DNA of 59,203 nt, taken from assembly GCA_018241325.1 (NCBI GenBank), contig JAFEEB010000024.1, positions 1 to 59,203 on the forward strand. Reading direction: 5' to 3'. Below, one piece after another: positions 55,369 to 59,203 of the stretch. The notes under the pieces were generated by a model. That model had not been told where the DNA came from, searched no databases, and worked only from the letters and a program-made list of their open reading frames with translations. The position numbers and the translations under genes were made by a program. The stretch comes from Pseudomonadota bacterium. GTDB lineage: Bacteria > Pseudomonadota > Gammaproteobacteria > Burkholderiales > Burkholderiaceae_C. Within the stretch, counting starts at the first letter, position 1. Every line of letters begins with the position of its first letter.

Positions 55369-58300
55369 ATGCGCGCATCGCTTCGTCCAGCCGCGGGCCA
55401 CACGCCTCATCCGATCGTGAACAAATCACTCGAACTCATGCCGGGTTCATCCTCGGCGGCGCCGCCGCGAGACGCGATGCCGGCCGATGCGTCGCCGCCC
55501 CCCATCCGCGATGCAGCGCTCGATGACATCGCCCAACTGGCGGCCGAGCTGACGGGCCTGGAAGCGGCGGCGCTGTGGCTGGCGTCTGGCGCGGACGCGG
55601 ACGCGCCGCCGCGCTGGGGCGCCTTTGGCGTGCCCATTCAAGCGTCGCAACTGCCCGCGCTGGCCCCATTGGCACAGCCGGGCGCCGCGGCGGCCGCGCC
55701 GCTGCTGGACCAACGCCCGGTGCGGCAATCGGTGGCCGCGCCGCTGCGCGACGCGAGTGGTGCGGCCGTCGGCCAGTTGATCGCCCTGGGTTTCGAAGCG
55801 GACGCGGCACGCGCCGATGCGCCGCAGCGGTTGGAGCGCCTGGCGCGGGCGCTGGGTGCCGGCGCCCTGCCGGCGCAACAGGCCACCACCACGGCGTCAC
55901 CGGCCGACGCGCCGCACGCGGCCGGCCCCTTGCAGGCGCGCCTGCACGGCACCTTGCGGGCGCTGCAAATGGGCAGCTGGGTTTACGCCGCGGAGCCGCG
56001 GCACCTGGACCTCAGCAGCGATGCCGCCCAGATCCTGGGCATCGACGAGCCGCCCGCGCAGCTGGATGCACTGCTGCAGCGCTTTGCGCCCGACGCAGCC
56101 CGGTCCCTGCGCCACGCCTTCGTGGCCTGCCTGCGCGATGGCCGGCCGATCGACGTCGAGGTGCCGCTCGATGGCGCCGAGGCCACGCGCCGATGGCTGC
56201 GCTTCATCGGCGAGGCGGCCATCGATGCCTGCGGCGGCGCGACGCGCGAGATCCACGGCGCGGTGCAGGACGTGACCACGCGCAAGCAGGCGCAGGAGGA
56301 AACCGTTCGTCTGGCGATGCGGCTGACCACGACGCTGGCCAGCATCACCGAGGCCTTTGTCGCGCTGGACCGTGCGGGCCAGTTCATGTATGTCAACCGC
56401 GCCAGCGAGCAGCTGCTGGGTTCGGACACGGGCACCTTGCTGGGCCAGCCGATTCACCGCTGGCTGGCGGGCCAGAGCGAGGGCCTGCTGCGCCAGGAGC
56501 TCGAAGGCGCGCTGGCACAGAACCGGCGCGCCGTGTTCGAGGACTTCTACCCCGCGCTGGGCAAATGGCTGGAGCTGCGCGCCCACCCCTATGCCGAGGG
56601 CCTGGCGGTGTACCTGCACGACGTCACCGCGCGGCGCCACACGCAGGAGCAGCTGATGCTGCTGCAGACCGGCATCGCGCGCCTGAACGACGTGGTGCTG
56701 ATCGTCGAGGTGCTGGACCAGCAGCCGGCCGGCGCGCTCATCGCCTTCGTCAACGACGCCTTCGAGCGCCTGACGGGCTTCACGCGCGGCGAGGTCATCG
56801 GGCGCGACCTGGCGCTGCTGGAGCACGGCGTGGGCACGGCCCTGCTCGATGAGCTCGCGCGCGGCCTGGTCCATCCGATCGGCGCGCCGCTGCGCCGGCG
56901 CGAAATGCTGCTGCGTCACCGCGATGGCGCCAGCCACTGGATCGACCTGGACGTGGTGCCCGTGCGCGGCAAGCACGAGCGCATCACGCACTGGGTGGCG
57001 GTGGGGCGCGACGTGACCCAGCGCAAGCAGGCCGACGCCAAGATCCACCACCTGGCCTTCTATGACGCGCTGACCGACTTGCCCAACCGCCAGTTGCTGA
57101 TCGAACGTCTGCAGTCCGCCCTGACCGTCAGCGAGCAAAGCCGCCAGGAGGGCGCGCTGATGTTCATCGACCTGGACAACTTCAAGGTGCTCAACGACAC
57201 CCTGGGGCATTCGCGCGGCGACCTGCTGCTGCGCCGCATCGCCGAACGGCTGACCGGCTGCGTGCGCCGCACCGACACGGTGGCGCGCATCGGCGGCGAC
57301 GAGTTCGTGGTGCTGCTGCAGGACCTGGGACGCGAGCGCAGGGGCGCCGTCGACAAGGCGCTGACGGTGGCCAGCAAGGTGCTGGCGCGCATGCGCGAGC
57401 CGTTCGACCTGGACGGCTACCAGCACTACAGCACCGTCAGCATCGGCGTAGCCCAGTTCAGCGCCGCGCACGAGGGTGTGAGCGAGTTGCTCAAGCAGGC
57501 CGACATGGCCATGTACCAGGCCAAGAACCTGGGGCGCAACACGGTGGCCTTCTTCGACCCCGCGCTGCAGGCCGCGCTGAGCGCCAGCGCGGCGCTGGGC
57601 GCCGATCTGCGCGCGGCACTCCAGGCGGGCGACCAGTTTCTGCTGTACTACCAGCCGCAGTTCGATCGCGCCCGCCGCGTGGTGGGGGTGGAAGCGCTGC
57701 TGCGCTGGAAGCACCCCGTGCGGGGTCTGATCGGGCCCAATGAATTCATCCCGATCGCCGAAGACACCGGGCTGATCCTGCCGCTGGACCACTGGGTCAT
57801 GCAGCAGGCGTGCCAGCGGCTGGCTGCGTGGGCAGGGCGGCCCGATACGCGCGAACTCGGCATCGCCGTCAACGTCAGCGCCCGGTGGTTTCGCCACCCG
57901 GAGTTCGTCGATCAGGTCATGGCCGCCATCGTCGCGCAGGGCGTGTCGCCCCGGCTGCTCAAGCTGGAGCTGACCGAAAGCCTGCTGGCCGACCGCGCCG
58001 AGATCACCCTGGCCAAGATGGACACGCTCAAGCGCGCCGGCGTGACGCTGGCGCTGGACGACTTCGGCACCGGCTATTCGTCGCTGGCCTACCTCAAGCG
58101 ACTGCCGCTGGACCAGCTCAAGATCGACAAGGGTTTTGTCGATGACGTACTGACCGATCCCAGCGACGCGGCCATCTCCAGCGCCATCATCGATCTGGCG
58201 CACAGCCTGAAGCTGTCGGTGATTGCCGAAGGCGTGGAGACCGAAGCCCAGTACCGCTTTCTGGCCGATCGCGGCTGCGAGCTGTTTCAGGGCTTTTTGC

Positions 58301-58392
58301 TGGCGCGGCCGGCGCCGCTGGACGAAGTGGAGCGCTTCATCGAGCGGCAGGCCGCTGACGCGAATCGGCCAGGCGCCGCGGCATCGGGCTGA
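55369..58392 (+). CDS. PAS-GGDEF-EAL cyclic-di-GMP signalling protein (1007 aa)
   Basis: Order of domains: GAF-like region (about 50-165), three PAS/PAC units (about 195-305, 315-420 and 430-550; each ends DVT(T/A/Q)R), GGDEF (about 555-715) and EAL (about 735-990). GGDEF is intact (ARIGGDEFVVLLQ) with an inhibitory RxxD site (RRTD) five residues before it. EAL has VEALLRWKHP and LDDFGTGYSSLAYLKRLPLD, so both synthesis and breakdown of c-di-GMP are possible. No membrane helices: cytoplasmic sensor. The ATG at 55438 (MPGSSSAAPP) is an alternative start. Its position near the polysaccharide operon suggests control of that pathway. Confidence 0.95.
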   Translation: MRASLRPAAGHTPHPIVNKSLELMPGSSSAAPPRDAMPADASPPPIRDAALDDIAQLAAELTGLEAAALWLASGADADAPPRWGAFGVPIQASQLPALAPLAQPGAAAAAPLLDQRPVRQSVAAPLRDASGAAVGQLIALGFEADAARADAPQRLERLARALGAGALPAQQATTTASPADAPHAAGPLQARLHGTLRALQMGSWVYAAEPRHLDLSSDAAQILGIDEPPAQLDALLQRFAPDAARSLRHAFVACLRDGRPIDVEVPLDGAEATRRWLRFIGEAAIDACGGATREIHGAVQDVTTRKQAQEETVRLAMRLTTTLASITEAFVALDRAGQFMYVNRASEQLLGSDTGTLLGQPIHRWLAGQSEGLLRQELEGALAQNRRAVFEDFYPALGKWLELRAHPYAEGLAVYLHDVTARRHTQEQLMLLQTGIARLNDVVLIVEVLDQQPAGALIAFVNDAFERLTGFTRGEVIGRDLALLEHGVGTALLDELARGLVHPIGAPLRRREMLLRHRDGASHWIDLDVVPVRGKHERITHWVAVGRDVTQRKQADAKIHHLAFYDALTDLPNRQLLIERLQSALTVSEQSRQEGALMFIDLDNFKVLNDTLGHSRGDLLLRRIAERLTGCVRRTDTVARIGGDEFVVLLQDLGRERRGAVDKALTVASKVLARMREPFDLDGYQHYSTVSIGVAQFSAAHEGVSELLKQADMAMYQAKNLGRNTVAFFDPALQAALSASAALGADLRAALQAGDQFLLYYQPQFDRARRVVGVEALLRWKHPVRGLIGPNEFIPIAEDTGLILPLDHWVMQQACQRLAAWAGRPDTRELGIAVNVSARWFRHPEFVDQVMAAIVAQGVSPRLLKLELTESLLADRAEITLAKMDTLKRAGVTLALDDFGTGYSSLAYLKRLPLDQLKIDKGFVDDVLTDPSDAAISSAIIDLAHSLKLSVIAEGVETEAQYRFLADRGCELFQGFLLARPAPLDEVERFIERQAADANRPGAAASG

Positions 58393-58474: not shown

Positions 58475-58589
58475 GTCATCGCGAGCGTGAAGCACGTGGC
58501 GATCCAGCGGAAGCGGCCAAGGATGGGCCGCTTGGTGATGGACACGCCGCTGCTGGATTGCCGCGCCGGCTGCGCCGCCTCGCAATGAC
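58475..58589. repeat. Inverted-repeat element 1 (115 bp, non-coding)
   Basis: Left arm GTCATCGCGAGCGTGAAGCA, ending near GGCGATCCAG. Right arm starts CTGGATTGCCGCGCCGGCTG and ends CGCAATGAC, the imperfect inverse of the left. About 40 bp of unique centre (GGCCAAGGATGGGCCG) lie between. First of a tandem array with short spacers of about 15 bp. Confidence 0.92.
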
Positions 58590-58604
58590 AGGGGCATAGA
58601 AGCC

Positions 58605-58718
58605 GTCATCGCGAGCCCGAAGGGCGTGGCGATCCAGTGGCGCGGCCATGGATGGGCCGCTTGGTGACGGCCACGCCGCTGCTGGATTGCCGCGTCGGCT
58701 GCGCCGCCTCGCAATGAC
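58605..58718. repeat. Inverted-repeat element 2 (114 bp, non-coding)
   Basis: Same structure as element 1, about 90 percent identical by eye (GTCATCGCGAGCCCGAAGGG to CGCAATGAC). The centre again contains GGATGGGCCGCTTGGTGA. Confidence 0.92.
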
Positions 58719-58734
58719 GGGGAACATGGAAGCC

Positions 58735-59128
58735 GTCATCGCGAGCCCGAAGGGCGTGGCGAGCCAGGGCGTCACCCGATGTCGTCGAACAGATCCCGCC
58801 ACGCTGGGTTCATGGCCTCGATCAGCGCGATCTTGCGCGCACGCGAGCCGGCCTTGAGCTGCTTTTCGCGCCCGATGGCGCTTTCCATGGTGTCGTGGGC
58901 TTCATACCAGACCAAATCGTGAACCTGGTACTTGCGGGTGAATCCTTCGAGCACATCGTTCTTGTGCTGCCACACCCGGCCCGGCAAGTTGCTGGTCACG
59001 CCGACATAAAGCGTGCCATTGCGAGCGCTGGCGAGGATGTAGACGCAAGGGTGCTTCATGGACCCATGGTGCCATGGCGAATACGCCGCTGCTGGATTGC
59101 CGCGCCGGCTGCGCCGCCTTGCAATGAC
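58735..59128. mobile_element. Inverted-repeat element 3 carrying a GIY-YIG gene (394 bp)
   Basis: The same left arm (58735-58767) and right arm (59082-59128, ending GCAATGAC) as elements 1 and 2, but the 40-bp centre is replaced by a GIY-YIG nuclease gene. The gene's stop codon lies 4 bp from the left arm and its start 22 bp from the right arm. The flanking spacers (GGAACATGGAAGCC) match on both sides. This is the structure expected of a small autonomous mobile element. Confidence 0.7.
58772..59059 (-). CDS. GIY-YIG nuclease family protein (95 aa)
   Basis: Single-domain GIY-YIG protein. CVYILASARNGTLYVGVTSN contains the GIY/YIG pair as VYI and YVG. The catalytic Arg and Glu regions are GRVWQHKNDV and YEAHDTMESAIGREKQLKAG. 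It ends with MNPAWRDLFDDIG. Members (YhbQ/UPF0213-like) are putative single-strand or repair nucleases, mostly uncharacterised. The gene is entirely enclosed by the inverted repeats of element 3. It is the only gene of the array. Confidence 0.93.
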   Translation of the reverse strand: MKHPCVYILASARNGTLYVGVTSNLPGRVWQHKNDVLEGFTRKYQVHDLVWYEAHDTMESAIGREKQLKAGSRARKIALIEAMNPAWRDLFDDIG

Positions 59129-59145
59129 GAGGGAACATGGAAGCC

Positions 59146-59203
59146 GTCATCGCGAGCCCGCAGGGCGTGGCGATCCAAGGGGGGGTGGTCAAGGATGGGA
59201 CGG
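59146..59203. repeat. Inverted-repeat element 4, left arm (cut by window end)
   Basis: GTCATCGCGAGCCCGCAGGG then CGTGGCGATCCA followed by AAGGATGGGA, matching the left arm and centre of the short elements 1 and 2. The right arm lies beyond the window. Confidence 0.85.

Follow-up and report, generated by a model that had tools for sequence, protein, structure and literature searches.

A small GIY-YIG nuclease gene within a pair of CGTC-tagged REP hairpins, and its possible role as partner of these repeats

The repeat array at the end of the window

The window, that is the whole stretch of 59,203 nucleotides analysed here (contig JAFEEB010000024.1 of the Pseudomonadota assembly GCA_018241325.1), ends in a tandem array of hairpin pairs, one of which holds a small nuclease gene. 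The features of the array are as follows.

58475..58589, no strand: element 1, short non-coding REP pair of 115 bp (direct reading, repeat search and REP finder)
58475-58505 (+) and 58555-58589 (-): left and right hairpins of element 1, heads outward
58605..58718, no strand: element 2, short non-coding REP pair of 114 bp (direct reading, repeat search and REP finder)
58605-58635 (+) and 58684-58718 (-): hairpins of element 2
58735..59128, no strand: element 3, 394 bp, REP pair around the GIY-YIG gene (direct reading and repeat search)
58735-58765 (+): left hairpin of element 3, one stem base changed, placed by analogy with element 2
58772..59059 (-): GIY-YIG nuclease gene, 95 aa, complete (Pfam PF01541, E 1.1e-14)
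59094-59128 (-): right hairpin of element 3 (REP finder)
59146..59203, no strand: element 4, left hairpin at 59146-59176 (+), then the start of a short-type interior, ending at the scaffold gap

The initial annotation described four tandem elements with spacers of 15-17 bp, and these are seen both by direct reading and by repeat search, with spacers of 15, 16 and 17 bp and a tandem period of 129 for elements 1 and 2. Its length of about 115 bp for non-coding elements is right for elements 1 and 2. The two ends of element 4 that can be read resemble those of the short type, and the sequence between them is broken by a gap: a run of N goes from 59204 to 59345 on the contig, directly past the window end, and beyond it lie a right arm and then one further left arm at 59414. 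Element 3 does enclose a complete GIY-YIG gene, but its arms are not the same as those of its neighbours, since both carry substitutions (GGCGAGCC in place of GGCGATCC on the left, GCAAG in place of GCGAG on the right). Because of these slight changes in both arms, this copy may be ageing. The gaps of 4 and 22 bp between gene and arms become 6 bp to the left hairpin and 23 bp to the first base common to the right arms, the right hairpin itself being 34 bp away. When folded, the left-type arms are simple hairpins; a single right arm folded with its inner bases takes a different fold, and the right arms still pass the palindrome finder. An open reading frame of 1007 aa at 55369-58392 adjoins the array, and its translation contains what we take to be GGDEF- and EAL-like motifs.

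The only Pfam match of the window protein is PF01541. Its motif is of the Gly type (K-A-G-S-R), and the residues invariant in the alignment are retained, including Y7, Y18, G20, R28, H32, E65, K66 and N84. The AlphaFold2 model has a mean pLDDT of 93.8, and its best fold matches in the PDB are the GIY-YIG proteins UPF0213, Slx1 (a cutter of branched DNA) and the UvrC N-domain, with a best E of 1.9e-3 and none at or below 0.001. By sequence and by fold, the closest solved relatives are the UPF0213 structures 1zg2 and 1ywl, presumably YhbQ-like, and the likeness is distant (the fold match to 1zg2 shows 26% identity). A tblastn search of 50,697 phage records at E 1e-5 gave no match, PHROGs gave no family for the protein, PADLOC matched no known defence family, Rfam at gathering scores found no structured RNA, and no similar DNA was matched in E. 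coli.

What kind of repeat are the arms? In the window and near the related genes described below, they have a common head GTCAT and a common tail ATCC(A) with differing stems. For this reading we used a REP finder blind to the stem sequence, which asks for GTC, then a palindrome of 5 bp or more starting with AT, then CC. All seven complete arms of the window (four left, three right) read [CT]GTCAT at the head, and six of the seven pass the finder for the AT-paired stem start and the CC tail; the left arm of element 3 was missed by the strict finder, one base off. The window stems consist of 5 bp, an interruption, and then a variable inner part. The CGTC-tagged REP superfamily was defined by Di Nocera, De Gregorio and Rocco in 2013 (PMC3733652). 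According to that survey, it spans several phyla, includes the Neisseria dRS3 as CGTC-1, and has a head CGTC or TGTC (CCTC being admitted as well), a stem opening with AT, a tail that is mostly CCA, and common dimers. The window arms are alike in head, AT stem start and tail, but the stems described there have 8-9 bp around a loop of 4-5, whereas those of the window are longer and interrupted. Judged by their sequence, the window arms therefore fit the superfamily save for the interrupted stems. The initial annotation also saw the relation of a full element to its MITE or REPIN derivatives; the arms do not look like typical MITE ends, being hairpins with a tag of the kind known from REP/REPIN systems.

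Nuclease genes, REPs and stem types across genomes

In the genome of the window, 26 exact GTCATYGCGAG words lie at about seven places, against 2 for the reversed-pattern control, and both stand-alone GIY-YIG genes are at such places (crude chance for both 4e-6). The second gene (contig C84, L040 3142-3432) lies in a type I restriction operon between hsdM, whose stop overlaps the start of the gene, and hsdS; it is not enclosed, because its REP pairs are solely downstream. In the genus of the window, all 8 stand-alone genes like that of the window have a REP within 400 bp, a count that omits L042 (one REP-like word, no REP) and three other odd PF01541 matches in G002, G014 and G027.

Does the association hold beyond the genus? 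A protein-only search of genome contigs gave at least 584 relatives, from which the best 80 were retained; Pseudomonadota account for most of these, and the REP-bearing ones carry eight other phylum labels besides. A REP within 400 bp is present in 69 of these best 80 and absent in 11, and the density of REPs, 8.0 per kb at 0-50 bp, is down to 0.11-0.17 per kb beyond 400 bp. The supposition that the system is general is thus borne out across many bacterial groups, and the genes are not mostly without arms, which would have spoken against it. Chance or composition as the cause was rejected, since five control finders with changed tags gave 0-1 of the 80 loci. A general effect of GIY-YIG genes was likewise rejected: no REP was found at 22 UvrC-like control loci, chosen by long open frames, or at 21 PF01541 loci of 16 REP-bearing genomes that lack the gene.

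The arrangement of gene and REP is close and varied. REPs lie upstream of the gene in 55 of the 80 loci. A 3' REP is present in 52, where it stands exactly 2 bp from the stop codon in 12 and 2-3 bp in 17, and the median gap between gene and REP is 11 bp on the 3' side and 31 bp on the 5' side. The nearest REPs are on both sides in 38/80 (heads outward 16, inward 11, other two-sided 11), on one side only in 31/80, and on neither in 11/80. It had been asked whether the genes are enclosed more often than chance: the association goes well beyond the controls (69/80 against 0-1/80), but strict enclosure with heads outward is found in a minority, 16/80 by CDS coordinates or 18/80 by match coordinates.

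We then asked how often the REPs occur without the gene in a host-family sample of 200 genomes, each at least 90% complete. A REP population was called at 5 or more hits of the CC pattern or 10 or more of the GC pattern, thresholds that were set after seeing the counts, and the GC pattern also matches coding sequence. By these thresholds, 24/200 genomes have a REP population and 10/200 a strong gene match, with both in 8; the population is thus present in 8/10 gene-bearing and 16/190 gene-less genomes (p 5e-7). The other side of the same table is that 16 of the 24 REP-bearing genomes have no stand-alone gene of this family, and the 21 PF01541 matches in them belong to different proteins, most of them long. 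In the host family the arms are therefore mostly in genomes lacking the nuclease, which the initial annotation had named as a sign against its proposal. This suggests that the REPs outlive the gene and perhaps spread without it, or that another agent moves them. Among 12 genes at family level, no REP was found for L156 and for L157, which is near a contig end. One member of the family (G181) has an orphan REP population, with 347 hits of the GC-type pattern and no stand-alone GIY-YIG gene found.

Is the protein matched to the stem of its REP? A table of 107 genes was made from the 80 relatives, 7 genes of the genus, 8 of the family and 12 of the plasmid collection (18 Gly-type, 86 Trp-type, 3 other); L067 and L157 are left out of it, as are three loci of the family that were present under other ids. 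Among the Gly-type genes (K-x-G-S/P-R) with a REP within 400 bp, 17/17 are without an arm of 8 bp, and the stems are mostly GCGAG in 16/17, the seventeenth having GCGAG in one of its two REPs. Among the Trp-type genes (K-x-W-x-R) with a REP within 400 bp, 71/73 have an arm of at least 8 bp and 0/73 have mostly GCGAG stems. On the sequences compared, the protein motif thus predicts the kind of stem of the partner REP. The rule in its first form, Trp with CC stems and Gly with GC stems, had 74 concordant, 0 opposite and 2 mixed cases among 87 genes, with 11/87 lacking a REP or a readable motif; it was abandoned on account of two family-level genes, L175 and L158, which combine a Trp motif with continuous ATTGCGG stems. 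The replacement, interrupted versus continuous stem, was set after these exceptions were seen, which makes the rule in its present form partly a fit to these genes.

The matching is seen at several levels. Gly-type genes occur in Chlorobiota and in alpha-, beta- and gammaproteobacteria by record titles, both protein types are present in the genus of the window, each with its own stem, and genome G052 has two genes, each adjoining its own REP subfamily. For Trp-type genes of different host classes, protein and stem distances are correlated with r 0.25 over 741 pairs, a value reached in 2 of 2000 permutations. The tree of the proteins, built from 84 rows and 96 columns with the incomplete L115, L136 and L140 omitted, is poorly resolved, 52 of its 81 inner branches being open, and stem type needs 2 changes on it against 13.9 in shuffles; the motif rule may therefore rest on few independent events. 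In the array at L158 895-1488 (G147), stems of the types ATGCCGGG and ATTGCGGG alternate in opposite orientations.

Empty sites in close strains had been suggested as a check, and gene-bearing as well as empty units indeed differ in presence between relatives in Azospirillum and Shinella. In Azospirillum lipoferum 4B, REPs, the gene and further REPs lie between sufB and sufC, and no unit is at this place in A. ramasamyi, A. oryzae and B510 (95-97% identical there) or in A. argentinense (90%). Counted with one pattern on one replicon per strain, the 4B replicon has 10 REP-pattern hits, 9 of them of REP form, and those of the four relatives have 0, 0, 0 and 0. Two further REP pairs of 4B are missing at the same sites in 3 and 2 aligned relatives. 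In Shinella, WSC3 and HZN7 carry a gene-bearing unit in an amidohydrolase neighbourhood, and S. sumterensis and H4-D48 are without it; replicon hits, counted in the same way, are 10 and 8 in the unit-bearing strains against 2 in S. sumterensis, 1 in PSBB067, and 0 and 0. PSBB067, counted here as unit-less, has a homologue on another replicon. In S. sumterensis, where the gene-bearing unit is missing from the place compared, a second site holds a REP pair, as is partly the case in S. oryzae. The junctions in both genera are not clean, short intergenic stretches being replaced. No target duplication was visible by eye at three Azospirillum and two Shinella aligned sites, where a short one could be hidden because the flanks have diverged.

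Candidate mechanism and its alternatives

Which known systems are like this one? In RAYT/REP systems (REPtron, REPIN), the gene of a small enzyme likewise adjoins or occupies an inverted pair of tagged hairpins, and pairs at other places are empty. As in a REPtron, tagged REPs flank the enzyme gene here (69/80 with a REP within 400 bp, 38/80 on both sides), but the window enzyme is a hydrolytic GIY-YIG protein and not an HUH/Y1 tyrosine transposase, the tag is GTCAT and not GTAG, and the REPs are often without an enzyme gene. Because PF01541 is its only Pfam match, the window system is not filed as RAYT. It also differs from classical IS and MITE elements, which have terminal inverted repeats with target-site duplication, in that no such duplication was visible by eye at the aligned Azospirillum and Shinella sites, where a short one could be hidden. 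Closer in enzyme is Ssn, which a study by Chenal et al. (Nature Communications, 2025) is said to describe as a family of site-specific single-stranded GIY-YIG nucleases with thousands of homologues, reportedly cutting ssDNA at a high-copy repeat of Neisseria meningitidis and affecting transformation. As here, a GIY-YIG protein would there be the partner of a high-copy repeat. A homologue in N. gonorrhoeae, presumably Ssn itself, lies among CGTC-1-type repeats and shares 62% identity with the window protein, a likeness to be expected if the latter belongs to that family. Since this homologue and the reported Ssn work point the same way, the pairing of nuclease and repeat is probably already known and in print. 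The emphasis of the Ssn work is reportedly on ssDNA cleavage and transformation, in contrast to the enclosure in REP pairs, the empty sites and the motif-to-stem rule described here. Possible novelties are the link across the CGTC superfamily, the motif rule, the enclosed unit with its empty companions, the empty sites and the reading as a mobile unit; in titles and abstract openings among the matches listed, no tie of GIY-YIG to MITE, REPIN, dRS3 or palindromic repeats was evident.

How might the pair work? The reading that we favour, with modest confidence, is that CGTC REPs and the small GIY-YIG nuclease are a matched pair in which nicking and copying spread REPIN-like units. The single-domain nuclease would recognise the REP by its head GTCAT, its stem and its tail ATCCA, most likely in single-stranded or folded form, and would place a nick in its head or close by, after which REP pairs would be copied, as REPIN-like units, to other places by repair or template switching. 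The gene-holding copy would be the full unit and the short copies its empty companions, so that the whole would work like RAYT/REP with a hydrolytic nuclease replacing the tyrosine transposase. The association, the matching of protein and stem, and the presence and absence of units between relatives are observed directly; the single-strand cleavage, reported for Ssn, is inferred here, as are the nick site and the role of cleavage in driving the spread. More tentatively, the GIY-YIG family may be the missing mobiliser of CGTC REPs, nicking cognate ssDNA hairpins with the stem read by the motif, and spreading REPINs together with its own gene. Counted against the matched pair are the 16/24 REP genomes without the gene, the 11/80 genes and 5/12 plasmid-collection homologues without a REP, the REP pair of S. 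sumterensis, the homologue of PSBB067 on another replicon, the strict enclosure of 16/80 and the unclean junctions.

Could the gene instead be a homing-type selfish nuclease that settles in pre-existing REPs, while something else makes and spreads them? GIY-YIG domains occur in homing endonucleases, REPs without the gene are common (16/24 REP-bearing genomes) and genes without a nearby REP less so (11/80), and S. sumterensis has a REP pair while the gene-bearing unit is absent at the compared site. We nevertheless regard this as unlikely. The four Azospirillum relatives without the unit also have 0 pattern hits against 10 (one pattern, one replicon each), so that REPs are not evidently first in that genus. 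A homing gene would interrupt its own recognition site and leave the target intact at empty sites; the REP finder gave no REP at the gene-less sites of B510, S. sumterensis and H4-D48, which would bear on homing only if the REP is the site recognised. It is also conceivable, if quite unlikely, that the nuclease serves the host by limiting or shaping ssDNA uptake and recombination, with REPs retained as its sites and neither partner actively moving. The Neisseria Ssn is said to modulate natural transformation through its repeats, and the N. gonorrhoeae homologue lies in a repeat array, its chromosome giving 120 pattern hits of which some overlap; against such a role, units vary between close relatives at unrelated places, the suf operon and the amidohydrolase neighbourhood, and the second copy in the genome of the window lies between hsdM and hsdS.

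Two other explanations fare much worse. That the hairpins are terminators beside many small genes, and the link incidental, accords with the REPs standing 2-3 bp past the stop codon in 17/52 loci with a 3' REP. It becomes very improbable in view of the REPs upstream of the gene (55/80), the match of stem type to protein motif, and the zero REPs at the control genes, which are UvrC-like, other PF01541 and Y1_Tnp genes. Extremely improbable, in our judgement, is that the REPs are moved by RAYT-type (Y1) transposases, with the GIY-YIG gene carried along. Y1_Tnp matches do occur in the genome of the window and in 25/25 tested genomes, with or without the nuclease gene, but a CGTC REP is near none of 31 Y1_Tnp loci (30 of 56 matches and the own one), with one REP in 100 kb, and RAYT as the mobiliser was rejected on this count. 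The 2013 survey likewise reports no pairing of CGTC REPs with Y1 and no dedicated transposase for them, and leaves their mover open (PMC3733652); GIY-YIG has 0 occurrences in its main text.

To return to the matched pair, the data tie one nuclease family to CGTC REPs in many bacterial groups, with a motif that predicts the stem kind, and they suggest that these REPs, which reach hundreds of pattern hits in some genomes (up to 347), may owe their spread to this family as their long-sought partner. With close strain pairs that have and lack the unit, and proteins of about 95 aa each with a predicted hairpin, the question is directly testable. If a plain nuclease can spread repeats, the range of known mobile-DNA mechanisms would be wider, and the matched nuclease-REP pairs would provide candidates, ready at hand, for cutting ssDNA at specific sites.

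Homologues in the plasmid collection

Of 34 plasmid-collection records with homologues, 12 were read, and 5/12 are without a REP in the 5.3-kb stretch; these five are 45-55% identical to the window protein, and others equally divergent have REPs. Three records filed as plasmids (NZ_CP119140.1, NZ_CP119142.1 and NZ_AP026896.1) are chromosome-sized, from N. gonorrhoeae or Aeromonas caviae. A divergent homologue without REP on a Planktothrix agardhii plasmid (L204) lies, by annotation, between an MmeI-type restriction gene and the DISARM gene drmA. On a plasmid of Photobacterium sp. GJ3 (L208 2965-5133), seven REP pairs are arrayed downstream of the homologue, and on one of Rhizobium sp. CIAT894 (L205 2440-3375) a gene-bearing REP pair is followed by two empty tandem pairs, as in the window.
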